This document shows positions 1,746 to 53,900 of a stretch of DNA of 56,954 nt, piece after piece; within the stretch, counting starts at the first letter, position 1, and each line of letters opens with the position of its first letter. This DNA is from Cochliopodium minus. Its lineage: Eukaryota > Discosea > Himatismenida > Cochliopodiidae. The position numbers and the translations under genes were made by a program. The stretch is from the NCBI GenBank assembly GCA_024220525.1, contig JAMYWO010000143.1, positions 53,444 through 110,397 on the forward strand. The letters are read 5' to 3'. The notes under the pieces are model-generated. The model worked only from the letters and a program-made list of their open reading frames with translations, had not been told where the DNA came from and ran no database searches.

Positions 1746-4700
1746 TTAATTTTCATCTTGAAATTGTCTGAAATTTTTGTTTGACAATTGTATTTCACTC
1801 CCTTTGCTTGATCTCATTTCAGTTCCTAATTGATCAATCATTTTGTTGAATTTTTTGTTTCTCCACCAGAATAAAGTAGTGATGATTATAATGACAATCA
1901 ATGAAACTCCGGCCGCTCCCACAACAATTCCAATGATTGCTCCTTTTGAAAGACCTATTTAATAAATAAATTTTTAAAAGATCATTTTTCTAAGAAATTT
2001 TGTAAATCTTATAACTTTTGCAGTTTGAGTTTAAAGATGTTGAAAGAGAAACTGAAAGTGAATTTTGTTGATTGTTCAAATTAGAAGAGATTCTGTCACA
2101 TTTATTGTTGCTGTAAATAGGTTTAAAAGTAAATTGAGAATCATCAACATTCAACTTTTCGGAACAATTATAAGAAATCAAAGGAATTGAAATATTTTCT
2201 TTTTGAGGTCTTTCGTCCAAAATGAGACTTATATTTCCATTCAATGAAACACATCCTAGAACATTTATAGAGCTTTCTAGATTGTTTTCATTGGAAATGA
2301 CAAAGTATAAGGTTGAATCTTTTGTTTGGTTGAAATCTCCTTCAATCAAAACACTTGTTTTGTTCAATGTCACTTCTCCTGTAATGGAGGTTGTATCAGA
2401 GTGCTTGTTTTTGAAAGAGTAGATCCATTGTGAACCAGAGAAAATACAAGATATATTGAATTGAGAAGCATCTTCCACTTTGAGTCCATTCATTCCGCAA
2501 TATTGACAATTTGAAACAGAGTACAAACACTTTAAAGGTAGATCTGTTGATGGAATCATGGTGGATGGAATTAATGTAGAGGGAGTTTCAAAACAAACAG
2601 AATTTCCATAAGTAGTTGGTTGTTCTATTAATGTATTTAATTAAACTTTTTATTATTTCAAAAGAAAATTAAAAAAAAAGAATTATTACCAATTCTCAAA
2701 TTATTTCCATTCCAAATCATATTTTGATCAAAAGTAGAATTTATCTTTGAAAATAGATCAATACAATTCAGTCCAATTGGTGTCGAAAAATCAGAGCAAC
2801 TTCCACTTCCAATGGCAGGTAATGAAGTGTTTTCAGAGTTATCAAAGTAAACGTCCGAAAAAGTACAGCTCATGTTTAATTGAGAGTAAAGATTGATAAT
2901 AGTACCAATTGATTGTCCAAAGTTTGTACCATTGAGATTAAAAGAAACAGAAGTGTAAACATTATTCATTGTTGTTTGGGCAGAAGGAATATAAGTAAAA
3001 AGATATGCAATGAAACCTCCTACATATTTTAGGGTTGAATTTGAAATAATTTTTGCTCTTGAATAAACATCATTGATTGTATTATCTCTCCATACATAAT
3101 ATTGTCCAACAAATCCGCCGACTTTCTCTCCTGTTCCCAAGACATTGATTGTAACAGATTGCTTCACATAACATTGAGAAATTGCAGAGTTGAAAGAAAA
3201 TCCTATCAAACCAGCAATATCATACAAATTCCCAACAATCACACCATTGCTCACTCCACTATTTGAAATAGAATTAGAATGTAAATATCCAAATAATCCT
3301 CCTTTGATTTTAAAAAAAAATTAAAAAATTAATAATCAAAGTTGAATTCCAATTAATTTAATCATTTACCAAGTCTGCCGACTCCATTTATTATTGTATT
3401 TGTAGGATCTGAAGGAAATCCAAGATTATGAACATTCATAACTGTGCAATAAGCATATCTTTTGTCATAAAAAATTAAAATTGAATTGATGTGAAGGATT
3501 ATTTATTTTTTCTTAATATTATTTACCCTGAAATACCACCAACAAAACTTCCAAAAGATGAATCAACAACTGTATTTTGTATTTTGATATTTGTTATCGA
3601 TCCATAATAAAAATATCCTCCAATAGATCCAGCGTAAGTTATGTTTGTTCCTCTTATCAAATTCTTTTTTGTTGGAAGAGTGGTATTTATAAAAATATTA
3701 TCAATTATGCAACTTTCGCAATAACCAAATATTAATCCGATATAGTTACTTCCAAAACCATTCACTTGAACATTTGAATCCAAAAGAGTCAGATTTTTGA
3801 CAGTTGCAACATTTCCATAACCAAACAACCCAATATAATCTCCAGAAGCAGAAATATTTAAATTTGAGATACTATAACCATTTCCATCAAGAATTCCTAA
3901 TTTTTTTTTTTTGAAATTTATAAAAAAAATATTTTTTGATAAAAAATTATAAAATTCATGATTAAAGTTTAAAATAAAATTTGATTTTTTTTGACCTCTA
4001 AATTGATTTGTTGAGTTTCCAATTGGTATAAATGGATTTATCATTGAGCAATCAATGTTTTGATTGAGAATACAACTTACAAAATTATTATTTGTCTTCA
4101 TTTGTGAAAGTTGAGAACAATCACTAATCAATAGAATCTGAACAGATGGTTGTATTGTTGGTGGTTCAGTTGTAGATGGAAACAAAGTTGATGGAATTAA
4201 TGTCGATGGTTCAGTTGTCGATGGAAACAAAGTTGATGGGATGAATGTAGAAGGTTCATTTGTGGAAGGTGTTAAAGTAAATGGGGGCGGCGAAGTTTCA
4301 AAGCAACTGTAATTTCCATAAGTAGCTGGTTGTTCTATTAATGTATTTAATTAAACTTTTTATTATTTCAAAAGAAAATTAAAAAAAAAGAATTATTACC
4401 AATTCTCAAATTATTTCCATTCCAAATCATATTTTGATCAAAAGTAGAATTTATCTTTGAAAATAGATCAATACAATTCAGTCCAATTGGTGTCGAAAAA
4501 TCAGAGCAACTTCCACTTCCAATGGCAGGTAATGAAGTGTTTTCAGAGTTATCAAAGTAAACGTCCGAAAAAGTACAGCTCATGTTTAATTGAGAGTAAA
4601 GATTGATAATAGTACCAATTGATTGTCCAAAGTTTGTACCATTGAGATTAAAAGAAACAGAAGTGTAAACATTATTCATTGTTGTTTGGGCAGAAGGAAT

Positions 4701-7680
4701 ATAAGTATAAAGATATGCTAAAAATCCTCCTACATGTTTTAGGGTTGAATTTGAAATAATTTTTGCTCTTGAATAAACATCATTGATTGTATTATCTCTC
4801 CATACATAATATGATCCAATTAAACCCCCAACAACAGCTTCTTCAGACTTTCTCGTTCCTAAGACATTGATTGTAATAGATTGCTTCACATAACATTGAG
4901 AAATTGCAGAGTTAAAACTATATCCTATCAAACCAGCAATATCATACATAATTTCTGCTTGATTTGAAATAATGACCCCATTGCTCACTCCACTATTTGA
5001 AATGGATTGTGAATGTAAATATCCAAATAATCCTCCTTTAATTTTAAAAAAAAATTAAAAAATTAATAATCAAAGTTGAATTCCAATTAATTTAATCATT
5101 TACCAAGTCTGCCGACTCCATTTATTATTGTATTTGTAGGATCTGAAGGAAATCCAAGATTATGAACATTCATAACTGTGCAATAAGCATATCTTTTGTC
5201 ATAAAAAATTAAAATTGAATTGATGTGAAGGATTATTTATTTTTTCTTAATATTATTTACCCTGAAATACCACCAACAAAACTTCCAAAAGATGAATCAA
5301 CAACTGTATTTTGTATTTTGATATTTGTTATCGATCCATAATAAAAATATCCTCCAATAGATCCAGCGTAAGTTATGTTTGTTCCTCTTATCAAATTCTT
5401 TTTTGTTGGAAGAGTGGTATTTATAAAAATATTATCAATTATGCAACTTTCGCAATAACCAAATATTAATCCGATATAGTTACTTCCAAAACCATTCACT
5501 TGAACATTTGAATCCAAAAGAGTCAGATTTTTGACAGTTGCAACATTTCCATAACCAAACAACCCAATATAATCTCCAGAAGCAGAAATATTTAAATTTG
5601 AGATACTATAACCATTTCCATCAAGAATTCCTAATTTTTTTTTTTTGAAATTTATAAAAAAAATATTTTTTGATAAAAAATTATAAAATTCATGATTAAA
5701 GTTTAAAATAAAATTTGATTTTTTTTGACCTCTAAATTGATTTGTTGAGTTTCCAATTGGTATAAATGGATTTATCATTGAGCAATCAATGTTTTGATTG
5801 AGAATACAACTTACAAAATTATTATTTGTCTTCATTTGTGAAAGTTGAGAACAATCACTAATCAATAGAATCTGAACAGATGGTTGTATTGTTGGTGGTT
5901 CAGTTGTAGATGGAAACAAAGTTGATGGAATTAATGTCGATGGTTCAGTTGTCGATGGAAACAAAGTTGATGGGATGAATGTAGAAGGTTCATTTGTGGA
6001 AGGTGTTAAAGTAAATGGGGGCGGCGAAGTTTCAAAGCAACTGTAATTTCCATAAGTAGCTGGTTGTTCTATTAATGTATTTAATTAAACTTTTTATTAT
6101 TTCAAAAGAAAATTAAAAAAAAAGAATTATTACCAATTCTCAAATTATTTCCATTCCAAATCATATTTTGATCAAAAGTAGAATTTATCTTTGAAAATAG
6201 ATCAATACAATTCAGTCCAATTGGTGTCGAAAAATCAGAGCAACTTCCACTTCCAATGGCAGGTAATGAAGTGTTTTCAGAGTTATCAAAGTAAACGTCC
6301 GAAAAAGTACAGCTCATGTTTAATTGAAAAGTTTTATCAATTATAGTACCAATTGATTGTCCAAAGTTTGTAGCATCAAAAAGCGAAAAAGAAACTGAGG
6401 TGGAGATATTTCTGATTATTGTAATTCTGGAAGCTTCAAAAGTATAAAAGTAACCAATTAATCCCCCCACATGAGTAATTGTCGAATTGGATATTATTTT
6501 TGCTCTTGAGTACACATCATGTGTTGATTTGTAGTCTGTCCATATGTAATACTGTCCAATTAATCCACCAACTTTCTCTCCCGTTTCTTTTACTTTGATT
6601 GTGACAGATTGTTTCACATAACATTGGGAAATTGGAGAGTCATAAGAATAACCTATCAAACCACCAATCTCTTTTTGACCAATTATGACCCCATTGCTCA
6701 CTCCACTATTTGAGACTGAATACAAATGTGTATATCCAAATAATCCTCCTTTTTGAATTTAAAATAATTATTTTGGAACATGTTTAAAAGACAATATTTA
6801 CCCACTTCATCAACTCCATTTATGATGGTAATTGTGGGATCTGAAGGAAATCCAAGATTATGAACATTCATAACTGTAGAATATGCTATGATAGCTCTAA
6901 ATAAAAAATAGGGAAGTCCAAAAATATTACAACTTAAATTTAAAGTTAATATTTTGTAAGTTAAAATTTTATATCCGCTAACAAAGTTGTCTAATAAATA
7001 ATTTTAATTTCAATTAATATTTACCCTGCTGCTCCACCAACAAAACTTCCAAAAGATGAATCAACAATTGTATTTTGTATTTTGATATTTGTAAAAGATC
7101 CACTATAAATACATCCTCCAATAGATCCAGCGTAAGTTATGTTTGTTCCTCTTATCAAATTCTTTTTTGTTGGAAGAGTGGTATTTATAAAAATATTATC
7201 AATTGTGCAACCTTCGCAATAACCAAATAATAATCCTATCAGACTTGCATTTCCATTAACTTGAAGATTTGAATCCAAAAGAGTCAGATTTTTAACAGTT
7301 GCAACATGACCATAACCAAATAACCCAATATAATCTCCAGAAGCAGAAATATTTAAATTTGAGATACTAAACCCATTTCCATCAAGAATTCCTTTTTTTT
7401 TTTTTCAATTTATAAAAAAATATTTTGATAAAAATTCTGATATAGTTTAAAATAAAATTTAATTTTTTTTACCTTGAAATGGAAATGTTTGATTACTAAT
7501 TGGTAAGAATGGATTTACCATGGAGCAATCAATATTTTGATTGAGAATATAAATAATATAAAAGTTATTCGTTTGCATATCTGAAAGTTGAAAACAGTCA
7601 TTAATCATTACAACCTGAGCAAATGTATGAGCGAAGAGAATAAGAAGAAAAAGAATAATTTTGTGGATAATAAGTTTCAT
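1746..7680 (-). CDS. secreted single-pass membrane protein with GLUG repeats (adhesin-like)
   Basis: Fourteen exons (7473-7680, 7025-7391, 6802-6896, 6134-6748, 5730-6068, 5261-5630, 5104-5192, 4400-5035, 3996-4334, 3527-3896, 3370-3458, 2690-3301, 2016-2624, 1746-1954) sum to 4947 nt, 1648 aa, stop TAA. The N-terminus is a signal peptide (MKLIIHKIILFLLILFAHTFA). The ectodomain has three units, each opening with a Cys-containing segment (ISDCSQLSQM type) and then many short GLUG-like motifs (GLFGYG, GGLFGY, AGLIG, VGGLIG), which fold as a beta-solenoid in known families. Units are joined by Thr/Pro/Ser-rich linkers (PSTTEPSTLIPSTLFPST), likely O-glycosylated. A transmembrane helix (GAIIGIVVGAAGVSLIVIIII) and a short cytoplasmic tail end the protein. 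GLUG motifs occur in bacterial adhesins and protist surface proteins; a surface or adhesion role is inference. N-glycosylation sequons are abundant. Confidence 0.85.
2690..6068 (-). repeat. 1.7 kb tandem duplication inside the GLUG gene
   Basis: The block 4400-6068 is repeated at 2690-4334 with an offset of exactly 1734 bases over most of its length, introns included. The offset falls to 1710 at the distal end because exon 4400-5035 is 24 nt longer than exon 2690-3301. The stalk exon, the following GLUG exon and their introns look base-for-base identical, while the middle of the third large exon of each unit differs in patches. The last ~150 coding bases and the intron after them are also shared by the first unit (6070-6300). 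Confidence 0.95.
6914..6990 (+). mobile_element. short hairpin (MITE-like) element, copy A, right end lost
   Basis: Shares AGGGA-GTCCAAAAATATTACA at the left and TATCCGCTAACAAAGTTGT at the right with the copy at 10604-10683, with a diverged middle. It fills most of a 128-base intron of the GLUG gene (6897-7024). The equivalent introns of the two other repeat units (5193-5260 and 3459-3526) are 68 bases and lack it, which supports insertion. The right inverted repeat is missing after 6990. No coding capacity. Confidence 0.6.
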
Positions 7681-7852: not shown

Positions 7853-10800
7853 TTATTTAAATCTATCAGCAAAAGAGTTTATGAGACCTTCCTTTGTATT
7901 AGGATAAGATTTGAAAGTGACAGTAGGCTTGTTATCATCACCACTAGCAGTGAAAAAGATGTTGGGTTGAACAAACAAAGAAGAAAAGTTTCTGAGAGGG
8001 AAAAACTTGCTGGAAAGAGATTTCAAAGACTGAGGAACGAGAGAATATTTCTCAAACAAAATTTTGGTTTGATCAACATTACCAACAGCCCTATAAACAA
8101 AAAGAGTTTGCAAAAGTTGTTCCAAAGATTGTTTTGCAAGATCGATGACTTTTTCAAAATCGAAATGAATTAAAAATGAATTTTCGGAAGAATTTTCTTC
8201 GAAAGAAAAAATTTGTTTTTCGAGTAAATAATTTCCGAGAATGTATTTAGCTTGATGTTTTGGACTGTCCCATTGTTTGGTGTTTTCGTCATAGAGGGAC
8301 AAGGATCTCAAGAGGGATTGAGCAGTAGAAAGGAAGAGGGAAGTGGAGATCTCTTGTTGTTTGTTGGTGTCTGTAACATTAAATACGGACAACACTGTTG
8401 GATTCAAAGACAAATAAAGAGCAATCGCATCAGCCTAAAAGTAATAATGATTTTTTTATGAATTTTTTTTATTTTATTTTATTTATTCTATTTATTCTAT
8501 TTATTTTATTTATTTTATTTTATTTTTATTTTTATTTTATTTATTTTATTTTTTTTATTTTATTTTATTTATTTTATTTATTTTATTTACCTTATTTATT
8601 TTATTTATTTTATTTATTTCATTTATTTTATTTATTTTTATTTTTATTTTATTTAGATTATTTTATTTATTTTATTTATTTATTTATTTTATTTATTTTA
8701 TTTATTTTATTTATTTTATTTATTTTATTTACCTTTAAACTTTCCAAAAGTTCTGCATTATCACCAAACAAAACACTAAAAATTTCACCAGGCAAATAAT
8801 GACCAACAATCTTCTCGTTAGTCAAAGGATTGATCATGTCCACATCAAAATTGAAATTTCCCATTTTGTTCTTAGTGAAGAACTTTCCGAAAGGATAACC
8901 AAACACTTGATACAATGTGGTGTAAATGATAGAAGCTTGTGTGAAATTTTCAGTGAAAACTTTCTTTTGGGATTCACTGAAATAAAGGGTGTCGGAGGTT
9001 TTCAAGTCAAAGGTGTTGGTGAACACCACTGTTTTTGGTCTGGTCATAAATTCTACCTCTGGGAAAGAGATGGATGAAGGAACAAACGAATGAACAAAGC
9101 TGATCACTATTTTATAATAAAAATTAAAAAAAAAAAAATTGAAAATAAAATTGAAACTAAAAAAGTAATTGAATAAAAAATATTTTTTTTTCTCATCAGG
9201 AGTTTTTTCAACATGATATGTTCGGGTAAATAAATTAATGCATCATTTTGAGAAAAAAAAAATTAACAATAATGATAATTAATAAAAAACAAATTTAAAA
9301 AATTGAAAATAATTTTACAGTCAACAAATTCCAATACAGGGAGAGCAAAAGGATATTGGGCAAAGTTGGAGGATTGAGGGATTTGATCTACAATTTTCTT
9401 CGCATTGGAAAGGATTTTCTGAGCAAGTTCTGTTTGGGTGGTCAATCCTACGAAAGATCTTGCTTCTCCTCTCTTTTTGAAAGGGTCCTTGTAAGTAGGA
9501 ACAAAAGCAAAGTGGACTGATTTTTTCAAAAAAAATAAAAAATAAAAAATAAATAAAATCAAAAATAAAAAGAAAAAATAAAGAAAAAATTAAATAATAA
9601 ATAAAAAGAAAAATTTTAAAAAAAAATAAAAAAAATAAATTTTTACATTCAACTTGAGGGTTGTGTTCATATTGCCACAATCTTTGTGCAACATCAAAAT
9701 GGGATTGGGATCCTTCACCGAAATAGTTGATGTATCTCAAAAGGAGATCTTTTTGGCGAGAGATGCCAGGGATGAAGGACAAGGAAGAGAAGAGATGTTG
9801 GTTCATGATTTTTAAATAACCACTGAAGAGACCAGTCTTTCTCTTGATGACAAAGTTGACGTCCTTTGGTTTTACAGTGACCACATCCTTTACTTCAACA
9901 GCACTTGTGTACAATTCGAAAACATCTCTTCCTATTAATAAAAAATAAAAATTTTTGAAAATTGATTTTAAAAAAAGAAAAATATTCAAAAAAAAATGAT
10001 TTTTAAATTTCATTTAATTGGAAATTAAAAAAAATAATTGAATAACCAATTGATTAAAATTTTTTCAACAAAATTTTAAATGAAATATGTTCAAAAAATA
10101 TGTTCATAAAAAATACAAAAAAAAAAAATTTTTTTTTACCTTCTTCAATTTTATTTGTTTTCAATAAACAAGAGTTGATTAAACCTTCAGTAGTATATTT
10201 CTCAGAATTGAGGATATCTTGCTCAGAAAGAATGGTCTCCTCAAAAGAAATCTCACCAGAGTAAAAAGGAATTGCATCAGAATCCTTGACGCCAGCCTTT
10301 TGGTTGTTCACAGTGACATCAAAAATAACAGATTGACATGCAGTGTAATAAGATTTAGCTTTAGGATATTTCTCTGCGAAAGCGTTCACAATTTTCTCGA
10401 AAGAAGATTTGGAGAGATTAGGAATGAACTTTTTTCTGTCTTGGTGGTGGTAGTTTCCCAAGTTGAGGAACACAAGGGCGGAGTAGTTTATAAACTCTTC
10501 ATATTCTTCTTTTGTTACTTTTTGGCTTGCTTTTTCACTTTTTAGAAAAAAAAGGTAAGGATTTAAAGAATATGAATGTTTTATTTCTGTTTGATTTATA
10601 GGGATGTCCAAAAATATTACACCAGTTTAAATTTTGTTAGTAAAAATTTTATATCCGCTAACAAAGTTGTAATATTTGGACATTTCTATTTGATTTATTT
10701 TAGAGAATATTTTATTTCATTAGGATGATGTTGAATCTGTTGAAAATATATTTGGATATAAGGTGTTAAAATATGTTTATAGATATGGTAAATATCTTTT

Positions 10801-11739
10801 TTTTTGTTAATTATATCATTAATTGTAACAATAAAGGATTCAATATACGAATCTTGAAGTGCATTATATTTACCATGCCAATACTCTGAGTTCTTCGACA
10901 GTATAATGAGTGAAAATCAAAATCAATAATTCAAATAATTCCTTTGTGGTGGATGATTGAGTTGCATTAATGAAGGATCCGATCCAACTTGCTTGATAGA
11001 GATGATAAATGAATCTCTTGACATTGATATCCAAAGAATTGAATGATTCCTCAACAGATTGGAATGATTTGATATCAAAATCCTTTGGAACTAATATAAT
11101 AAAAGATTTTGGTTATTATAAGATGGAGATGGATTAAATGAATCAAAAAAATTAAAATATATCCCAATATATTAAGATGATAAGAATATAAAAAAATTTT
11201 ATTTTTTAATCAAGTTGTTACTGTTTACCTTTAAAATTTTCAGAATCCTTTTCATTCAACACATTCCATGATCTCTTTGTCAATTTTTTAGTTTCTGCTT
11301 TTTGTTTCTCAATCAATTTTGCAAATTCCTGCAATCTTTCCTCCTCTGTTTTTTGAGGAGGTTGCTTTGGACTTGGTGTTTTGGTTGCTGAAAAATTTTT
11401 GGTTGTGGTGGATGATAATTCTTCTTTTTTGTTATTTGGAATTGTTTTCTTTGGTGGATCTACTTGAGTTGGTTTGGTTGGGATCTCTTTTGATTTTTTC
11501 AAATCCTCCATCTTTAATTCTTTTGTATCTTCTGATTTGCTTTCAGATTGATTATTATTGTTATTGAGAAATAATTTCAATCCAGAATAGAGCAAAACAG
11601 CTCCAGCTATGACTGCACTTCCAATGTAAAGGGCATTGGTAGGATTTATTCCTCCAATTTCGTTATTATTATCCCTATTAGAATTATTGGACCTTTTATT
11701 ATTTCTTCCACCTCTCCTTCTTCTATTGTATTCATCCAT
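7853..11739 (-). CDS. membrane-anchored dipeptidyl-peptidase III-like pseudoenzyme
   Basis: Seven exons (11229-11739, 10874-11090, 10140-10537, 9647-9931, 9319-9516, 8733-9106, 7853-8434) sum to 2565 nt, 854 aa, stop TAA. Residues 1-35 are Arg/Asn-rich, residues about 36-58 a transmembrane helix, then a Lys/Pro-rich linker, then a full-length M49 peptidase-like fold starting at VPKDFDIKSF (about residue 171). Family landmarks are clear: LGNYHHQDRKKFIPNL, YKDPFKKRGE, FNFDVDMINPLTNEKI and a C-terminal FVQPN...GLINSFADRF. The zinc motif HELLGH of DPP III is replaced by YQVFGY (Y602-Q603-V604-F605-G606-Y607), and the glutamate zinc ligand of EECRA(D/E) aligns to S659 in ESLKAD. Zinc hydrolysis should therefore be impossible. 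True DPP III is soluble; the N-terminal anchor is unusual. Junction phase links the TM exon to the M49 part (AAA G|TT CCA), and no ATG exists between them. Peptide binding or scaffolding is a guess. Confidence 0.85.
8456..8730. repeat. TTTTATTTA-type low-complexity intron
   Basis: About 275 bases of near-pure TTTAT/TTTTATTTA units fill the last intron of the DPP III-like gene. Long open frames across it are artefacts of composition (Phe/Tyr/Leu/Ile only). The intron splits the protein just after the sequence aligned to the second zinc motif. Confidence 0.9.
10604..10683 (+). mobile_element. 80-bp MITE-like hairpin element, copy B
   Basis: The ends are inverted repeats: ATGTCCAAAAATATTACA at the left, and the reverse complement of the right end reads ATGTCCAAATATTACA. 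A nested pair (TTTGTTAG/CTAACAAA) extends the arms, so the whole element folds into one hairpin. TTTGATTTAT occurs on both sides (10590-10599 and 10689-10698), a possible target-site duplication. It lies in intron 2 of the DPP III-like gene (10538-10873). No ORF. A non-autonomous DNA transposon relic is most likely; a structured RNA is an alternative. Confidence 0.6.
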
Positions 11740-34858: not shown

Positions 34859-37800
34859 ATGGGTAATATTTCAACAATTGGAGAACAAAATACATCTTGT
34901 ACAATAGAAAATTTATGTTCTTCTACAAAATCAAAGAAAAGAAAATCAACACCATCTATTCACAATAAAAATAATAATAATGGTGAACAAAAATTAAATT
35001 TTATCAGTAATCTTCAAATATGGAGAGTATATCAAAAGAAGGGGAAAAATTATGACGAAATAATTTCAATGGAGAATTTCAAAAGATTTGAAAAGAAAGA
35101 ATGTTATATAGTATTGCATGCATATAAATTGAATAAAGAAAAATCCTCATCGCCGTATATCTTTTCCAAAGAAACAAACAAAGAGAACAGCAAAGATGAA
35201 GAAAAAACAAAGAGATCTTTGAAAACATTAATAGATTCATCATTCAATTCACTAACACCAAGAGGTATTTCTTCTATATGGGAGTGTACAACATTTGGAT
35301 CTGGAAATATGGAACAGATCTCGAAGGGGAGTAATTTAAATGGAGATGAGAATAAGGAATTTGCCTATGAATTGTATATTTGGAATGGGCAAGAAGCATC
35401 TTCATTAACAAAGGCATTTTCTTTGGCCAAATGTTTCCTGCTTGAGAAAAAGCTTTCATCCAACAACGAAATTTATAAATTATTGTTTGAAATATCTTCC
35501 ACTTCTATTGGATCATTATTTGTTGATGAATTGGATATGCACAATGATTTTTTGAAAAAAGGATCGAAAAATCACCTATTCACTAATTTATTCAAACAAT
35601 ATCCATCTCTTATCAAATCTCCATCGAAAAGAAGCCAAAGTGACAAATCTACCGAGGAAAATGGAGATGATTCAAGATCATCCAAATCACCAAAATTAGA
35701 ATCCTCTTCCAAATCTCCCAAATCAGAATCCAGAAAGAGATATTCCACTTCATTCAATTTCTTAAAGACAAATGGGTTCTTTATTGATTCGGAATACGAA
35801 GATGATGAAGATACCTCCTCTTATTCTGATACTTCTGAATCGTCATCATCTGAAGGTGAAAGTGAAGAATCTCGTGATGAAGAAGAGGAATCATACGAGC
35901 CTTCTGGAGAAGATAGCGCAGAAAGAGGAAAAAGATTGGCTTATGTTTTACTTGATGATTATTCATCTGATGGTGATGAACCTGATACAGATGAGGAACC
36001 TCCTCTAGACAATGTGAGTCAAAGAGTGAGAATAGAGTTTTATGAAAGAAGAGTCTCCCAAATCACTCCTTACATGTTCTTGGGAGGCTTGGTAGTTGCG
36101 AGAAAGAGAGCATGGCTTAAACGCAGAGGTGTCACACACATTGTTAATCTCGCTTCTATGATTAGACCTCACAAACCATATCCTGAAGACTTTATATACA
36201 AGACTTATTATCTCCTCGACAGCAAAAACTCAAACATATCCACCATTTTCTTGGATGCCATCGAATTCATAGACAATGCAATTGAGAACGGAGGAAAGGT
36301 TTATATTCATTGCCAACAAGGTGTCTCAAGAAGTTGTACCACTGTCATCATGTATTTGATGTGGAAAGAAAAGCTAAAGTACATGGAGTGCGAAAACAAG
36401 GTAAAGTCCATCAGAAAGATTTGCTCTCCTAACCCTGGATTCATCATGCAACTTATTTTGTGGCAACAAGCCCTCTTTGAACCAATCAACAACCCAAAGT
36501 TTTATATCATACAAAGTCAATCTCCTTACCAGCCAAAGTTTTTGGTTCCTTTCTATATCATGAAACCAAATAGAAGTACTCTCAAAACAGAAAGTACAGT
36601 GCTTATACTTACTAAAGACACCCTTTACTTTTGGATTGGAGCTAATTCGGGAGAATTAGATTTTACTGCAGCTGAAAGATACATTCTCCTGTTTCAAAAG
36701 TACCTGAATGTTTCCAAGAACGTTGTGAAAGTAGAAGAAGGTAAAGAAGAACCTCAGTTTTGGGAAATTTGCTTTCCTCCACCAAAAAAATCAGTCACAC
36801 CAAGAATAGAATCTCCCAGAAGAGAAATCGTTAAACAGCCAACCGATACTCCCACTCCATCAAAGAAAGTTCCTCCAATGAAAATGGGATTCAAGTTGGA
36901 CATAGGAAAGATTGGTGGATCCAGTCCTACTGCAGAAAAAAACTCTCCAAAAGAAAAACTTCCACCATTCAAGTTGGATTTGGGAGGAACTAAGAGTTCA
37001 CCGAGAAATAATGGCATAAAGTTTAATTTAGATTTTTCTGGAATAAGAAATGCTAAAGATCCTTCTGATGTGAACAGTGGGATCAGAAGTCACAGAGAGA
37101 TTCTCACTCCTGGAAGCAGAAACTCAAAGAGAACTCCAAGAAAGAGTCCCAGTGTTTCTAGTTCTTCAAGATCAAGAGATTCCAAGATGAGTTCTGACGT
37201 TTCTGATTCTGATGATTCTTCCTTGTCTTCCAGCTCTTCCAACACTTCTAGAACTCCAAGAGATCAAAGCTCTGATAGAGATTCTGATTCTGCTAATGAC
37301 AGTCCTTTGTCTAGAGGATCTTATAGTGAAACTAAACTTGGAATCCATTTGAATTCTCCCTTAGTAAATTCTCCAAGAAATAAACCTTCTCCTTTCAGTT
37401 TAAACATCCCTCCTTTGAACTTTCAAAAAGACAATACAACGAATACTACAAATAACAATACTCCCACCAAAAAACCTACTGAAGTACCTAAATTGAATTT
37501 TGTTCTTTCTTCGCTTGCCAAAGTGACTGATGTATCCGATTCTTCCGAAGAAAAAATGAAAAGTGCCAAAAAGAAAAGAGAGTCTGACAAAAACCATATT
37601 TTTGAAATCGTTCCCCACCTTTTTCTCTCGAAAGAAGCAGTATCCAGAGACAAGAAAGCACTCCTAGAAAACAAAATAACACACATTGTAAATTGTTCAG
37701 GATACAGTGTTCAAAATACTCAGGACAAGAAGATTTTTACATACAAAACTTATTTCATTAGAAACAGCAATTCTGAAGCGATTGATAATGTTTTCATCGA

Positions 37801-38341
37801 TTTCATCTCCTTTGTTGATTCTGCCATTTCACAAGATGGTAACGTTCTTGTTCATGGTGAAGATGATTGGTCGATCTCTGTCTCCCTCATCTTTTCCTAT
37901 TTAATTTGCATCAAACACAAGAACTACGAAGAGATCTTCCAATCTTTTGATAATCTTGTTTATGTCAAGATAAAAGAAGCTTTTCAGAGTCAATTATTCG
38001 AATGGGAATCTCGTTTTAAATCGAATTCTCCTATCTCCAAACCTTCTGTCTACCAAATGATCAAACATTCTGTTAAAACGCCTTTGTTTGTTGTCCCCAG
38101 CAAGATTAAAGATGTCAACAAAGATCTCTTTTCAAATTCAAACGAAATTTATGTTTTGGAAACTCCCAAGTCTTTTTACATTTGGAAAGGCAAAGATAGT
38201 TCCAGTCTCAATCTCGACACTGCCAAAAAGTTTGTTCAAAACATCAAAAAGTACATCCCAAACACTGAAAACAAACCTTTGAACGAAATTAATCAAAGTG
38301 AAGAAACAACTCAATTTTGGGAAGATATCCAGTTGAATTAA
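34859..38341 (+). CDS. tandem dual-specificity phosphatase with gelsolin-like segments
   Basis: Intronless, 1160 aa, stop TAA. The N-terminus MGNIST fits N-myristoylation (Gly2, Thr6). Residues about 48-215 are gelsolin/villin-like (LQIWRVYQKKGKNYDEII, KKECYIVLHAYKL, ELYIWNGQEAS). After an acidic Ser-rich linker, a DUSP domain spans about 390-545 with the active loop HCQQGVSRS (C485, R491) and typical YMFLGGLVVARKRAWLKRRG start, then a second gelsolin-like segment (LYFWIGANSGELDFTAAERY). A long Ser/Pro-rich disordered linker follows. The C-terminal third repeats the layout: DUSP-like fold (ITHIVNCSGYS, LVHGEDDWSISVS) in which Cys is Gly1000 and Arg is Ile1006, then another gelsolin-like end (FYIWKGKDSSSLNLDTAKKF). 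DUSP plus gelsolin-like architecture is known for plant MKP1-type MAPK phosphatases. A MAPK or actin-linked role is inference. Confidence 0.85.
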   Translation: MGNISTIGEQNTSCTIENLCSSTKSKKRKSTPSIHNKNNNNGEQKLNFISNLQIWRVYQKKGKNYDEIISMENFKRFEKKECYIVLHAYKLNKEKSSSPYIFSKETNKENSKDEEKTKRSLKTLIDSSFNSLTPRGISSIWECTTFGSGNMEQISKGSNLNGDENKEFAYELYIWNGQEASSLTKAFSLAKCFLLEKKLSSNNEIYKLLFEISSTSIGSLFVDELDMHNDFLKKGSKNHLFTNLFKQYPSLIKSPSKRSQSDKSTEENGDDSRSSKSPKLESSSKSPKSESRKRYSTSFNFLKTNGFFIDSEYEDDEDTSSYSDTSESSSSEGESEESRDEEEESYEPSGEDSAERGKRLAYVLLDDYSSDGDEPDTDEEPPLDNVSQRVRIEFYERRVSQITPYMFLGGLVVARKRAWLKRRGVTHIVNLASMIRPHKPYPEDFIYKTYYLLDSKNSNISTIFLDAIEFIDNAIENGGKVYIHCQQGVSRSCTTVIMYLMWKEKLKYMECENKVKSIRKICSPNPGFIMQLILWQQALFEPINNPKFYIIQSQSPYQPKFLVPFYIMKPNRSTLKTESTVLILTKDTLYFWIGANSGELDFTAAERYILLFQKYLNVSKNVVKVEEGKEEPQFWEICFPPPKKSVTPRIESPRREIVKQPTDTPTPSKKVPPMKMGFKLDIGKIGGSSPTAEKNSPKEKLPPFKLDLGGTKSSPRNNGIKFNLDFSGIRNAKDPSDVNSGIRSHREILTPGSRNSKRTPRKSPSVSSSSRSRDSKMSSDVSDSDDSSLSSSSSNTSRTPRDQSSDRDSDSANDSPLSRGSYSETKLGIHLNSPLVNSPRNKPSPFSLNIPPLNFQKDNTTNTTNNNTPTKKPTEVPKLNFVLSSLAKVTDVSDSSEEKMKSAKKKRESDKNHIFEIVPHLFLSKEAVSRDKKALLENKITHIVNCSGYSVQNTQDKKIFTYKTYFIRNSNSEAIDNVFIDFISFVDSAISQDGNVLVHGEDDWSISVSLIFSYLICIKHKNYEEIFQSFDNLVYVKIKEAFQSQLFEWESRFKSNSPISKPSVYQMIKHSVKTPLFVVPSKIKDVNKDLFSNSNEIYVLETPKSFYIWKGKDSSSLNLDTAKKFVQNIKKYIPNTENKPLNEINQSEETTQFWEDIQLN

Positions 38342-44934: not shown

Positions 44935-47900
44935 ATGAAAAAAAGTATTGGTGGATCCAATTTTTCACCTGTTGAACCTTTAACTGTGAGAATAAGAGGG
45001 ATTTTACAAGTAAATTCTTTTACAAAGATTATTTCTTCCACTAACAAATTAATCTCTTATAGAATTATCCGGGTAAAAAAAATTGATGTATTACTTTAAT
45101 TTCCAATTTCATTTTTATAATTGAAATATTATAGATGGATCACAAATCATAAAGGTTAAAAAAAAAAAAAAATCATCAAAGAAATTTAAAATTGAATTTT
45201 TTTTCTAATAATACAAAATATTAGGAATTGGTAATTTAGCAAAATGGATTCAAAATCATTGTATATTAATAAGAAAAATAGGTTCAAAATGCAGGTAAAT
45301 TATTTATTTTTGAAGTTGTTAAATTATATTTGTTTATAATTCTTTAGATGACGCAAAGGCATCATATGTGAAGATAATATATGACAAGAGATCATTCAAT
45401 GGAGATAAACTTTTCAATGATCAAATGAGAATGTAAGAGATTTTTTTATTTATAATTATTAAATAGATTATTACTGAAAATAGGTTTATGGGACCATCAT
45501 TACTTGTGTATAACAATGCAATATTTCAAGAAGAAGATTTTCAAGGTGAATTTTTAAAACCAATTTTTTTATTTTTCTGAAAATTTATAAAATAAAATAA
45601 AGGAATCATTAGGCTTGCAAACTCTGTCAAAACCAAGAATTTACAAAAAACAGGTAAAAAAATAAAATATTCTTTTGTTTTATCAAAATAATTCCACATT
45701 AAACAATTTAGGAAAGGTAATTGGAATAAATCTTTGAAATATTAAAGTTAAATGTAATTTACATCCTCATCTTTTATCATAGTTTGGATTGGGATTCAAT
45801 TCTGTTTATCATTTGACATGCTTGCCATCATTTGTATCTTCTGATTCGATAGTTATATTTGATCCTCATCTTTTATATCTTGACCAAAGAAGTGCTGGAT
45901 TGAGGTATAATAATAAATAATCATAATAAATAATCAAAGAATTTATAAATTCTTTTGGATAGATGGAACTTCTTGGAAAATAAACAAGTGTTAGAAGATT
46001 ATGAAGATCAATTTAAACCATACAAGAATGAATTTTTGGGTTGCGACTTTGAGGAAACATTCAAGGGGACATTATTTAGGTTCCCTCTTAGAACAAAAGA
46101 GTCTGCAGAGAAATCAGAAATTTCTGAAAAGGAATACACAGACGAAGATGTAAAAAAACTGTTTGCATCCTTCGAGAAAGAAGCGAATGAAGTGATATTG
46201 TTTTTGAAATACATTGAAAACATAGAAATATATGAATGGGAAGACAACGAAGAAGAACCAAATCTCATCTATTCCGTGAAGCTTCCCAATTTGGAAGAAA
46301 AAAGTAGAACAAACAGAAGAGCGATGATAGAGAAATACGTTTCAAAAGAAGATTACTTGGAGACACTTGACATTCAAGAGTCCATCGAGTACAACTGCAG
46401 AGTTGAAGTCAAAATTCATGAAGAGGTAAATTATGAAGAATGGTACATTGTTGGTCTAATGGGAGTTCATGGAGCTAAAGATTTGGCAATAGAGCATGCA
46501 AAGACAAAGGGTTTAAAATATTTTTTTACATATTTCGTTTAATTTAAATTCTTCACATACTTTTAGGAGTGAAATTTATTCCTTGGGTCCAAACTGCCAC
46601 AAAGATGTATGATGAGAACGTTAAAGAAAGTCTTAAAGGAAAATTATTTGTTTTCTTGCCTCTCTCAAGCTACACTTTTTTGACATCTCACGTTAATGGA
46701 TTTTTGTAAAAATTTTTTTTTTTTTTTTTTTTTCTTTAAAAATAAATAAAATAAAAAAGTGAACTAAGCATGAACAGAAGAGATCTTTGGACTGTATTAT
46801 ATTTTTTTTTTTGAATCTTTTTCAAATAAACATTAAAAAATAAAATATTTTGTAGGGAGACGACTTGGTGAACATGGACAAAGTTAAAGTTGATTGGAAC
46901 GTTGCTTTGCAAAAAGAGTTGGTTTACTGTTTCCCAAACATGCTTCTTAAGATGAGTAAATCAATAGACACAGACAAAGAAGAACAGCTCAAGTATTATT
47001 ACAGCTTGTTTCCTGACGTGAATGCTCTTCACCCAAACTGGAAGGTTATTTCTTCTCTTTTCGATTTGTTGAAAGAATGTGACATCAAAGTCTTGTTTTC
47101 GGAAGTTTCTGGATGGGTCTCCTTTTCTGATGCTATTTTGGTTGACGAAGAAAAAGACTTGGATAACAAAAATCTAATCCAAAGGTATTTGGTGAGCGAA
47201 AGAAAAGAATTTGTACAGCTTCCTTCTTTCTTGAACAAGTCGTTGAAGTATTCACACATCAAAACAGTTGATTTTTTTCATTTTCATTTTCATTTTTTTT
47301 TTTAATTTTTTTTTTATAAGATAACACCAAAACTTTTGAGGGAGTTTGTTAAAGACTCAAACAACAAAAGCGAGTTTTGGAATGATAGGGAATCGGTTCT
47401 TGAGTTGTTGGAATATTGCATGTCAGATAATGACTATAATGATCTAGAGTCTTGCAAACTTGTTCCTTTGGTTGACAAAACTTTTTGTAAATTCCAAAAA
47501 AGCAATGAGAAAGTGTACATTACGGACTCTGTGTTGGTTCACAACATATTCAAAGAAAACATGAAGAACAGATTTGTGGATATTGGCGTCAAAAAATCTA
47601 TCTTGGATTCTCTCATTCAACTTTCTTCTTCTTCCAATTTGAACATAGAAAATTTGAAACATGCTTCCATACCTTCTCTCATCAAAACTCAATTCATGAA
47701 CAATTGGAGCTCAAACTTGATGAGAATGGACAAAGTGATCAACGTTGATTGGTTAGATGTGTTGTGGGAATATATCAACTCCAAAGAATGCCCAAATGTT
47801 TCTCTTTTTGAAAACCTACATATTTTGGAAGTAGGAAATCAAAATCTGATCAAACTGGTTAAAGTGAAAGACTCTACTTGTTTGATAAATTCCGAAAATG

Positions 47901-50900
47901 AAATTGTTCCCATCTTGAAGGATTTGGGTTGTTATTTCATCGAAAATCCCAAAATGAAAAAGGAGGTATTCAATGAGTACATCCATCCTTTTACTCCCTC
48001 TGGTATCTTGGACGCTTTATCTATCAGCGGGCCAAACTTTGAATCTGTAAAAAGACCAATGGACAAGTTGAGTCTCAGGAAATTCTTTTCGAACTGTGAT
48101 TTTTTATTTTTGAATGAATCTCATAAACAAACGTTGAAGTTGATACCTTTCTTTGAATCTTACCAAAGGCCCAACTTTGTTTCTATGAAGAACATTCAAA
48201 TTTATGATTTTCCTCCCAAAAATTTCGAGTTTTTGAGCAACCAATCGTTGATTCAGAGATTTGAAAATGATGAAAAGCTTCTAAGGTTCATTGGTGCAAG
48301 GATCTTGGAAAATACAGAAGTCTACACCAAATACATTTTCCCCCATCTCCACAGTTTTCAAAAGAATGAAAGAGAAAAACTTTTGATAGATATGTTGAAT
48401 GATCTCCCCAAATTGAGAAGTGACGATAATTTTGACAAAATTGTGACCAACCTCCAATTTGTTCCGGACAGAGACAGTGAGTTGAAAAGACCAAATGAAT
48501 TATTTGATCCAAATGAACCAAAACTTCGTGGTCTGTTTGGTGGAAATGATCCTTTCTTCCCTGAAAGTCCTTTTGACCAAAAAAATATAATTAGTATTTT
48601 GAGAACTTTGGGACTGAAAGTCGAGCTTAGTTTTGATGACTTTGTTGAAAGATGCTCTTCTATTTCCCCTTTGAACAACAAAAACTTAGAAGAAGCAATG
48701 GAAAGATCGAAAAATTTGTTATATTACATCAACAATTATTATCCATATAACCTTGGCCAAAAGGAGTTACAGCAACTCAACAATATAAAGTGGGTTGTCG
48801 CTACTTATAAAGGAGATAACGTGTTTTGTTATCCAAACAAAGTTTTTTACAAGTTTCGTGAACTTGTTTATTTTGTAAAATAATTTTTTATTTTATTTTT
48901 ATTTTAATATTTTAATATTTTATTTTATAATATTTTATGTTTTATTTTTTTTTATTTACGTTCAACAAAAAGGTCGCTCCAATTTTAAACTTTTGTCCAA
49001 ACAATGATAAGCTTATCTCTTGTTTTGGTTGGAACAAGGAACCTGTGCTAGAAGAGGTGAAAAAACATTATGAAATTCTCAAAGAAACTCTTTCCGAAAA
49101 AGATATCAACTCCAACATACCTGTCATCTATGATTACTTCCTCAAAAACAAAGGAAGAGACTTGAAGGAATATTTGAACCAAACAGAGTGGATTTACGCC
49201 AAACAAAGTTTCCATCACACAAAAAATATAGTCTTTCATTGTGATGTTGATCTTTCACCTCATTACTATGAGTTACCTGATAACTACAACAAATTCAAGG
49301 AATTATTCGAGTTTGTGGGGGTGAACAAAACATTTGATGAGATGCAATACGCAGAGTTCCTCCGAAAACTTCACAAAGACAACCAAAACAATTCTTTGAA
49401 GGAGAATGACCTCAAAATCGCACTAAACATCTGCAACAGAATCTCCTCTTGCAAAAATGTGAACTCTTTGGGTGACATCTACGTTCCTACAAGCACCAAG
49501 AAACTTGTTCTTTCTACCCAAGTGATTAACAAAAATTTGAAATGGCAAGTATCTTTGAACTTGAAAAGAGAGTGTGTGCATGATAGCATTTCAAAGTTTA
49601 TTGCCGAAAAGCTTGGTTGTGTCAATCAGCAAGATTTCATGTTCAAAGATTTACAAGAAGATGAATCAGAAGAGTTTGGACAAGTTGTTGATTTAGTCAA
49701 AGAAATAAAGCAAATAGTAGATGACTATGGAAACACTTTTTTCGAAGAAATGATACAAAATGCGGGTATTATTTTTTTAATGTTTAATTATTTTCATTTT
49801 ATAAATTTTTTTTATTTTTTATAAAATTTTTAAAATAGATGATGCAAATGCTTCAGAAATCAATTTCTTGTTCGACTTTGATACATACAAAAGTGGATCA
49901 CTTTTTACGTAAATCAACTTTTTTAATTCAAAAAGTAAATTTTTAAACTTTTTTTTACTTTAAAAGACAAGAAATGAGTGATTTCCAGGGACCAGCTCTT
50001 TATGTTCACAACAATTCTGAATTCAGTGGTAATGACTTTAAAGCTATCAGCAATATCGGATCTCAAACTAAAATGAAGGATGTCGACAAAATTGGAAAGT
50101 TTGGGAAAGGATTTAATACTGTTTTTCACCTGACAGATTTACCTTCATTTGTGTCTGGGGACTTTATTTGTTTTCTTGATCCACAAAAAAAATATTTGAA
50201 AAAGTAATCTTTTCTTTTGTTTAATTTTTTTTCATTAAAAAATTTTTTTGACCAAAAGGAAAGGAGCAAAAATAAATTTTGTCAAAAGTAAAGTTTCAGA
50301 ACAGTTTGAAGATCAAATCTCCTCCTATAATTTATTTGGGTGTTCCATTAATAAAAATCAACATTTCAATGGTACTTTGTTTAGACTTCCTTTCAGGTAT
50401 TTCGAATATCAATTTAAAAAATTTAATTTAAAAAAAATATCCAAATTAAAAATTAATTTTAAATCATTTTTTTCAATAAAGAAATAAGAATATTTCCTAT
50501 CAATCTGAAATATCTCAAAACATAATGGAGAAAATGATGATAGAGAGATTCATTTCCAATTCAAGGGAAAACGGACACAACCTTCTTTTGTTCTTGAACA
50601 ATATCAAAAGACTCACTGTTTCTACAAAGTTGGGAGGGAAAATAACAAGAGAATTTGAAGTGTTCACCAACAATTCATATAACTTTAAACAGTTCATTCT
50701 CAATTCTTCAAAAATCGACGGATTTGTCAATAAATTAGACCAAATGATATTCATTGAAACAAATGTAAAGGACCAAAAGAATAGGCGTTCAGACACAGTG
50801 AAATGGTTGGTTTACGGTTCTACTTCTAACATTGGAATAAAAGAAAAAAAGCTTGGATTTCTTTTTTTGGCATGCCCTCTTGATTCAAAGCAATCTCAAA

Positions 50901-53900
50901 ACAAAGGAAAGTTGTTTCATTTCCTCCCTCTCCAAATGGAAAGTAATTTACCTGTGCAGTTAAACGGAAATTTCAGGATAGGTTCTTCACGTAATCATTT
51001 GTTGTACAACAACGAAAGTCATCCAACTCAAACAAGAGAAAACCAAAACATTTTTTCTATGCTCCCTTCAATGTATGAAATACTCATCTCCTTGTTGAAA
51101 ATTGCTGTCTCCAAAAAATCTTCAACTCTGAAAATTGGAAATAATGAAATGAAAAGTATTGAATTCAGAGACTACTATTCTTTTTGGCCAATATCAAAGG
51201 GAGTGATTTTTGTTGAAAATGAAGTGAAAGAACTTTACAAAAAACTCTACAAACAAGATTGTTTTTTTGTTGAAAAACCAAATTCTCTTGAATGGATTTC
51301 TCCTGAAAACTCTATTACTTTGGAGAGCAATGATTTTGGAAAGAGATTGATACCTTCTTTCAAAAAAACCATTCCTCTTGTCGAAGTTCCATACTTCATA
51401 GATTCTATGTTTGATAAAATTTCTCTGAAACTTAAAGTTTTTTCTCCTTTGGTTCTTATTGATTACCTTTGTTCTTTGAAATACGTTGAAAAATATGACA
51501 TTAATGATCATCCTTTTGGAAATAGGAATATGGTGATGGAAATATTAAAGTATGTTTTGGGAGATCCGAATGTGAATGTAGAAAATGTAAAAACTCTTCC
51601 CCTTTTTGAAACAATGGACAAAAAATTTACAAATCTCCTTTACCAAAAGTATTATTGTGAAAAAGCGAATTGGGAGATGATAAAACTGATCTTTCATGAA
51701 ATGAATAAAATTTTATCATTCGAATTCAAAGATGAAATCAAAAATCATTTTCTTTTTTCACTGAAAAATAAAGATATGCTTGAAAAATTGGGTGTCATTT
51801 TTGTAAATTCTCAATTCTTTTTGGATAAAATTATCAAAATCAATTTCAAAAGTCAATATGATATCAATAATCATCATTTTGGAAACAGGAAAATGGTGAT
51901 TGATATACTGAAATTTGTTTATAATAGTGGAAATGGACAAATTGAAAAAATAAAACTGCTTCCTCTTTTTGAAACTCTTGACAACAAATTTTCAAATCTC
52001 CAAAACCAAAAATACTCTTTCATTGAATCAAGATGGAATGTTTTGAAACCAATTTTGGAAAATAACAAAGATTTCATTTCTTCAAAGTTTTATGAAGAAT
52101 TCAGATATTCGAGGAATTTTTTTGAAAGTTTGGGAGTTGTTGAATTGGATAGTTCCAATTTATTGGATTATTTGTGCAGGAAAAATTACAACTCTGAATA
52201 CGACATCAATGATCATCCTTTTGGGAATAAGGAGTCTGTGATTAATATATTCAAGTATTTGTATTCGAGTAATAGCATTCAAAAATTGAAAACTCTTCCT
52301 CTCTTTCTCATGATCAACAACAAATTTACCAATTTGATTCACAAAAAATATTATTGTTGGAATACTGAATGGGATATTCTGAAATCTGTCTCTCCCAATT
52401 CACAAGCTATCGTTTCTTTGAATTTTACTTCTGAATATTCTCCTCTTTATAGATCATACAATGAAAAAAGTGTAGTTGATAATCTAGGAATTAATCGCTT
52501 AAAACCGTCAGATATGTTTCGAATATTAAATAGTCACATTTCTTCCAATGAACTAATAATATGGGAAGGAAAAAAAGTTTTTGAAGAAGAATGGCTGGCA
52601 AATTTGTGGAAATATATTGAAAGGAATTTTGATAAATTTGTAAAATATTTCAAAAATTCTTCTGCTTCTCTTTTACCTGTTGAATGTTGCCCAGAACTCT
52701 TCAAGTCCTTACACTTCAAGGAAAAGTTTTCTTTCAAACCTGAAATCTTTAAAACAAAAAGATGTTTGATACCTGTGAAATTTTTCGAGAAGATTTTCAG
52801 ATGTAATTACAATTTTAAAGTAGAATTTCTTCAATGTGGGTTTATTTTTTTTGACAGAAAATTTCAACCTGAAAACAAAACTTACTCTTACTCTAATAAA
52901 ACTTCAAATGATCTCTATTCTTCTCTTAGTTCCTTAAATCACCAAAATTTTTTGAATTACATCTCTAAAGTACCTGAACAAATCTTACAAATCCTTCCTC
53001 CTAAATCTAGAATTTCTGTGTTATCTTTTTTAAACGGAATGCAAAAAAGTGAAGTTGAAAACAACTCGAAAACGATCAAATCTCTCCCTTTCTTTGAAAC
53101 TCAAGCTGAAAACACTCTTTTTCTCACCACTTGTTCCAATATTTTAAATAACTTAGATAAGATCGACCTTGAAAAAGTTCAAAAATGGGAAACAATGTAC
53201 AAATCTTTTTTGGAAGGTTTGGAGAAATTGAATACCAAATTTATTTCCGCAAAAGAAGGTGTGAAAATTGTTCCTGTGAATTTTCCAGAAATAAAATCTC
53301 TGAAAGGCACCTGTCTTGTTCTGAGAGAAGAACACAAAACATTATTTAAAAATCTAAAGATCATTGAAAACTCTCCTCTTAATTTTTTTGACTCTTCTGT
53401 TTCTAAAAACTATGGTTTTTTGAGTAAAGATGAAAAAATAAAATTAATGCATTTTCTACTGGATTATGGAACCAAGAATGACTTGGAAACAAACCACATC
53501 AATCTTCTGTCTTCTACTTCTTTTGTGGCAGATAAAAATGGTGAATTTTGTGCTCCCAAAACACTTTACGAAGAAAATCCCTTCTTTTCGTACCTCTATG
53601 ACAATCGATTCTTCTTTCCACACGATAGTATCAAAACCTACCTTCCTTTTCTCACATGTTTAAACATAAAAACAATTCCTACCACTGAAGAGATTATCGC
53701 TTGTTTGTTAAAAATCTCCGAAGAGAAAAAATACAATGATGAGATCATAGTTGTTGTGAAATCTATCCTCAATAATCCCAAAATTATTAGTCTTTTCGGA
53801 AATATTGCTCACATCCCTTTTATTCCGGTTGTGTGGGACGAAAGGATACAAAACCCAATACAGTTTACTACTTTTTGTCAAATTGCTAACAAGAGAGATC

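Follow-up and report, generated by a model that had tools for sequence, protein, structure and literature searches.

The gene described here, from an AT-rich eukaryote, lies on the minus strand at positions 11739-7853 of the window, by which we mean the whole stretch of DNA that was analysed (56,954 nucleotides). Its seven exons (Table 1) splice to a product of 854 residues followed by a stop, with an unbroken frame and exon joins in phase. The introns are 130-336 bp long and all six are of the GT-AG type, every donor reading GTAAA; their GC content is 4-21%, compared with 35% in the exons. A first-pass annotation had reported a clean, intron-supported frame at this locus. The rebuilt gene model reproduced its coordinates, motif and residue numbers exactly, and we detected no stop or frameshift in the 854 codons.

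Table 1. Parts of the gene and of its introns in window coordinates; arrows run from residues of human DPP III to those of the window protein.
Feature	Coordinates	Strand	Content
exon 1	11229..11739	-	start Met, Arg/Asn-rich N-terminus, hydrophobic anchor (residues ~36-57), charged linker; from gene model and hydropathy
intron 1	11091..11228	-	without ATG on gene strand
exon 2	10874..11090	-	DPP III-like domain begins; no in-frame methionine
intron 2	10538..10873	-	holds high-copy short inverted-repeat element
exon 3	10140..10537	-	strongest conservation; includes GNY..KFIPN
intron 3	9932..10139	-	from gene model
exon 4	9647..9931	-	final complete codon E470 = E316, kept
intron 4	9517..9646	-	from gene model
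exon 5	9319..9516	-	Y318 -> H472
intron 5	9107..9318	-	from gene model; contains C/D snoRNA-like element
C/D snoRNA-like element (Rfam SNORD36)	9191..9252	-	in intron 5; 31.7 bits against a gathering score of 30
exon 6	8733..9106	-	N391 -> S550, N394 -> E553, R399 -> T558; HELLGH -> YQVFGY; E508 -> S659
intron 6	8435..8732	-	largely tandem repeat of ATTTATTTT type
exon 7	7853..8434	-	H568 -> K720, R572 -> K724; stop codon

By homology the protein belongs to peptidase family M49. Peptidase_M49 (PF03571) was the sole Pfam family found, covering residues 307-853 with 261 bits against a cut-off of 21 (E=2.4e-77). The best match among solved structures was human DPP III, aligned from residues 169-853 of the query to its residues 6-704 (214 bits, E=2.9e-62). 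The two matches together span the entire domain, in agreement with the earlier observation that M49 features are kept along the whole length. Further structures matched were 5yfb, named dipeptidyl peptidase 3 (179 bits), yeast DPP III (145 bits, residues 372-852) and, weakly, Bacteroides DPP III (24 bits, E=0.00012). Since the human and yeast enzymes score far above that of Bacteroides, the match scores indicate that the gene descends from a DPP III closer to those two than to the bacterial one. Structure prediction on the exon 7 product, modelled in an alignment, gave a pLDDT of 88.1, and the 13 best PDB matches of this model were all DPP III, with TM-scores of 0.57-0.71 by query length. The exon 6 fragment, which bears the altered site, yielded no confident model (pLDDT 54.1). 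The yeast (3csk) and Bacteroides (5na7, 5na8) proteins thus belong to the same family by sequence and by exon 7 fold; both are described as characterised active enzymes with hexapeptide zinc motifs (PMC5667867, PMC5805324), whereas the window protein has no such motif. Human DPP III (PDB 5e2q, 3fvy) shares the whole-length domain with the window protein, which differs from it in lacking the zinc ligands, the general base and all but one of the seven residues that contact the peptide, and in having an extra N-terminal helix and linker.

The zinc motif of DPP III is HEXXGH, or HEXXH in some bacteria. In the human enzyme zinc is reported to be bound by His450, His455 and Glu508, the motifs being HELLGH and EECRAE, and Glu451 is the proposed general base (PMC4824452). 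The motif EEXR(K)AE(D), with the third zinc ligand, has likewise been given as a mark of DPP III enzymes (PMC5667867). Neither HEXXGH nor EEXR(K)AE(D) occurs in the window protein. Its HELLGH slot reads YQVFGY (residues 602-607) and its EECRAE slot ESLKAD, and the slots of His450, Glu451, His455 and Glu508 are occupied by Tyr602, Gln603, Tyr607 and Ser659, the last at the third-ligand position. HExxH and HExxxH were absent from every frame of 7853-11739.

We compared these positions with homologs collected by a two-row profile (the query and one insect protein), for which at least 7,999 candidates were scored and 120 of 874 homologs were listed. The four catalytic residues were canonical in 120/120 of the homologs listed, the query being the sole row without HELLGH. 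This sample is narrow because its named members are all arthropod: organism names are attached to 74 of the 120, all read as arthropods, and to none of the other 46. The bacterial comparison consisted of three loci, all from Planctomycetota, and all three keep HELLGH. These data confirmed that HELLGH has become YQVFGY and that the distal glutamate ligand is Ser659, so that, as first annotated, all three zinc ligands and the catalytic glutamate are gone. They strongly support the prediction that the protein is catalytically dead.

Loss of the ancestral site would also be compatible with a changed enzyme, in which a different chemistry is carried out by a new active site made of Tyr602, Gln603, Tyr607 or other residues, and a histidine (721) does lie one place after the His568 slot. 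However, the protein has no HE-type metal motif and we know of no precedent for such a conversion, which we regard as the least probable of the readings considered here.

Peptide contacts in human DPP III complexes are described for Glu316, Tyr318, Asn391, Asn394, Arg399, His568 and Arg572 (PMC4824452). The matching residues of the query are Glu470, His472, Ser550, Glu553, Thr558, Lys720 and Lys724, and the contact set of DPP III is thus reduced to one of seven, Glu316 (as Glu470). Three of the changes should be read with some caution. That of Tyr318 appears to be the weakest since the three bacterial relatives also lack this tyrosine (Asn, Asp and Asn in the three planctomycetes; Asn also in 2/120 among the homologs listed). 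Thr558, in the Arg399 slot, adjoins a gapped stretch of the alignment, and histidine 721 sits one place past the His568 slot, making both of these changes less telling. In total, exons 5, 6 and 7 carry changes at 10 of the 11 positions that bind zinc, take part in catalysis or contact the peptide; the equivalents of Glu316 and Glu507 are unchanged. Because ten separate residue changes are spread over three exons in an intact frame, we rejected sequencing or assembly error, the former being the alternative named when the site was first annotated.

The contact residues also bear on what the protein might do, for which peptide sensing or scaffolding had been proposed. As a peptide sensor or trap, its cleft would close on peptides without cutting them, like human E451A, which binds angiotensin-II with a Kd of 1.64 uM (PMC4824452). 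Trapping of EGF ligand has been suggested for Gone early, an anchored M13 pseudopeptidase (PMC11266112), and the kept equivalents of Glu316 and Glu507 are in keeping with a cleft of this kind. With six of seven contacts changed, the peptide-sensor idea is nevertheless weakened and we do not favour DPP III-like sensing, although an altered peptide specificity would escape this objection. We therefore consider a sensor or trap rather unlikely, and of the two proposed functions scaffolding, or an adaptor role, is the better.

We then considered the N-terminus. The KD-19 hydropathy maximum of the protein, 1.81, falls at residues 36-54. The predicted anchor helix is only moderately hydrophobic and its margin is small, since a second hydrophobic stretch inside the M49 domain (residues 527-545) reaches 1.70. 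Among the homologs listed, 100 of which were counted N-terminally complete, 0/120 exceeded a KD-19 value of 1.6 within the first 60 residues. The earlier remark that characterised DPP III is soluble was addressed in this form, as the lack of an N-terminal helix in the 120 homologs listed. Searched against the assembly, a stretch of 146 residues from exon 1 matched nothing but itself, and an NCBIfam search with exon 1 returned one match, at 13.7 bits against a cut-off of 80.

Such an exon could belong to a gene of its own, encoding a small membrane protein next to a separate, soluble, dead DPP III. The exon 1 frame does stop three codons beyond the donor, and the 138-base spacer (intron 1) resembles in length the 105 bases separating the start codon from the upstream open frame, which ends at 11845. 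On the gene strand, however, this spacer contains no ATG, and no methionine occurs between residue 77 (exon 1) and residue 418, so that the domain alone would lack an ordinary start, though it might use a non-ATG one. In addition, exons 1 and 2 join in phase, and GTAAA is the donor sequence of every intron. Two genes are accordingly very improbable. The missing start codon argues for the anchor exon being part of this gene and, together with hydropathy, supports the prediction of a membrane-tethered product. The claim that a TM helix is spliced in frame to the domain was supported as regards the in-phase join and the start-codon logic; hydropathy also favours it, by a narrow margin.

The 35 residues before the helix carry a net charge of +4, and the 15 that follow it one of -2. 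This pattern leans weakly towards type II topology, which would put the domain on the non-cytosolic side. That reading is weakened by the net charge of -1 over the last 15 residues before the helix, and anchoring like that of mitochondrial outer-membrane proteins, which would leave the domain in the cytosol, seems about as likely. Three cysteines and ten glycosylation sequons in this Asn-rich protein do not decide the side of the membrane.

To place the gene in its genome, we searched the assembly (44.65 Mb, 598 contigs) for M49 genes. Neither the Pfam profile nor an insect DPP III detected a second one: the profile gave four matches, all of them exons of the window gene, and the insect protein three, again all in the window gene. 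An active M49 paralog in the assembly was rejected on these grounds. As a rough check of completeness, members of the Cpn60/TCP1 family were found on 11 contigs, indicating that the assembly is not grossly partial. Orthologs carrying YQVFGY and the TM exon, the proposed check, did not emerge from searches that need shared exact 5-residue words and can therefore miss diverged orthologs. With residues 171-854, the matches listed included one insect protein (at least 7,996 candidates scored); with residues 592-692, no close ortholog was found among 84 candidates.

Lack of a detected ortholog would be expected of a gene on its way out, whether a DPP III in decay or a transcript retained solely as host of the snoRNA in intron 5, where the SNORD36-like element lies. 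We defined an invariant set of 128 positions, identical in at least 98% of the 120 homologs listed and shared by the three bacterial relatives. The query keeps 53/128 of these positions, and 75/128 otherwise invariant positions have changed, which is also compatible with decay. The region corresponding to the N-terminal 120 residues of DPP III retains 16/25 invariant positions as against 37/103 elsewhere (Fisher p=0.013, for a comparison picked after the data had been seen). We do not claim that site residues were lost faster than the rest, since 1/9 site residues in the invariant set are kept compared with 53/128 overall, which is not clearly worse (p=0.053).

The open frame argues against decay. 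At least 16 substitutions in 30 bases are required to explain the ten lost codons. In neutral simulations, which assume a single even rate and leave out insertions and deletions, 1-4% of frames survived at 0.03 changes per base. At 0.05 changes per base 5-7 stops were expected and 0.5% of 200 frames survived, and at 0.1 there were 10-13 stops and 0/200 frames remained intact. An intact frame of 854 codons alongside so many changes in the lost codons speaks against slow decay, and suggests that outside the site the gene was probably under constraint during these changes. The snoRNA-like element has three further copies, so the window gene would not be its sole source. Decay, or mere hosting of the snoRNA, is in our view unlikely. 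The earlier proposal of a retained function is supported by the intact frame, which is its sole support and the one indication of constraint after loss of the site, with its peptide-sensing version set aside as above.

The reading we prefer, at a probability of roughly 0.6, is that the gene encodes a membrane-anchored, DPP III-derived pseudopeptidase acting as an adaptor or scaffold, in an assembly in which no second M49 gene was found. In this model, the two-lobe body would persist as a surface for binding other proteins, tied to the membrane by the N-terminal helix and about 110 residues of charged linker, and the anchored body would serve as adaptor or scaffold. Since most conserved positions are retained in the region that corresponds to residues 1-120 of DPP III, this region would be the likeliest binding face. 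A broader proposal is more tentative, and we place it somewhat short of even: that this is the first M49 pseudoenzyme lineage, an anchored binding protein in an organism without active M49, in which the DPP III body was selectable for non-proteolytic reasons. Our data concern one species and one gene copy, and the value of the finding hinges on orthologs or expression. Human DPP III is reported to act via binding to KEAP1 (PMC8878202), so a natural M49 body free of catalysis and of the usual peptide contacts would offer a clean test of the fold's own role and, if the assembly is complete, a eukaryote lives without active M49.

Searches of titles and abstract openings in the searchable literature, which leaves most subscription journals outside, found no M49 pseudoenzyme or pseudopeptidase, and for membrane-bound DPP III the searchable literature gave one unrelated review. 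A membrane-associated form of DPP III was reportedly described early on in Drosophila. Pseudopeptidases are known mainly from M12 and M14, with a few in other families. Across the main text of a 2024 review of pseudopeptidases, neither M49 nor "dipeptidyl" occurs (PMC11266112). The best-fitting likeness in design is the Drosophila protein Gone early (M13), which is anchored as type II and has all key active-site positions changed (PMC11266112); it belongs to a different family and we claim no descent. Tma108 (M1) and Ebp1 (M24) are described as peptidase bodies reused for protein binding (PMC11266112). They resemble the preferred reading in the way they work only; both are ribosome-linked and of other families than the window protein, and homology is not claimed.

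Several other features of the locus were recorded. The SNORD36-like match has an E value of 0.37 over the whole window and of 0.0014 over intron 5 alone. In this assembly it has three relatives, 84-94% identical, on contigs C498, C15 and C33, and the C/D boxes and two guide-like stretches are conserved among the copies. On C498 and C33 the open frames flanking the copy are on the same strand; these frames resemble proteasome Rpn5 and an ammonium transporter. A search for a large-subunit rRNA target of the element, made with one degenerate pattern, gave no match. Intron 2 contains an inverted-repeat element of about 80 bases (10604-10683) with ends GTCCAAAAATATTAC...GTAATATTTGGAC. Of 418 candidate sites in the assembly, at least 40 match it with 94-100% identity; it also has a diverged partial copy near 6914-6990, and looks like a recent MITE-type repeat.

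Elsewhere in the window, an exact direct duplication of 1287 bases (3307-4593 and 5041-6327, offset 1734) carries identical open frames of 275 residues, presumably GLUG-repeat-like, for one of which Pfam returned no family; it arose either by tandem duplication very recently or as an artefact of assembly. A row of large open frames occupies 47306-55969 on the plus strand, one of which (50483-53914) weakly matches a sacsin domain, scoring under the cut-off (PF25794, E=0.00033). Finally, 34859-38338 on the plus strand encodes a protein of 1160 residues that combines two stretches of dual-specificity phosphatase with a gelsolin repeat. Its first phosphatase site reads HCQQGVSRS (residue 484) and the later one HGEDDWSIS (residue 999), so that the second phosphatase domain looks dead and may represent another pseudoenzyme domain in the window.
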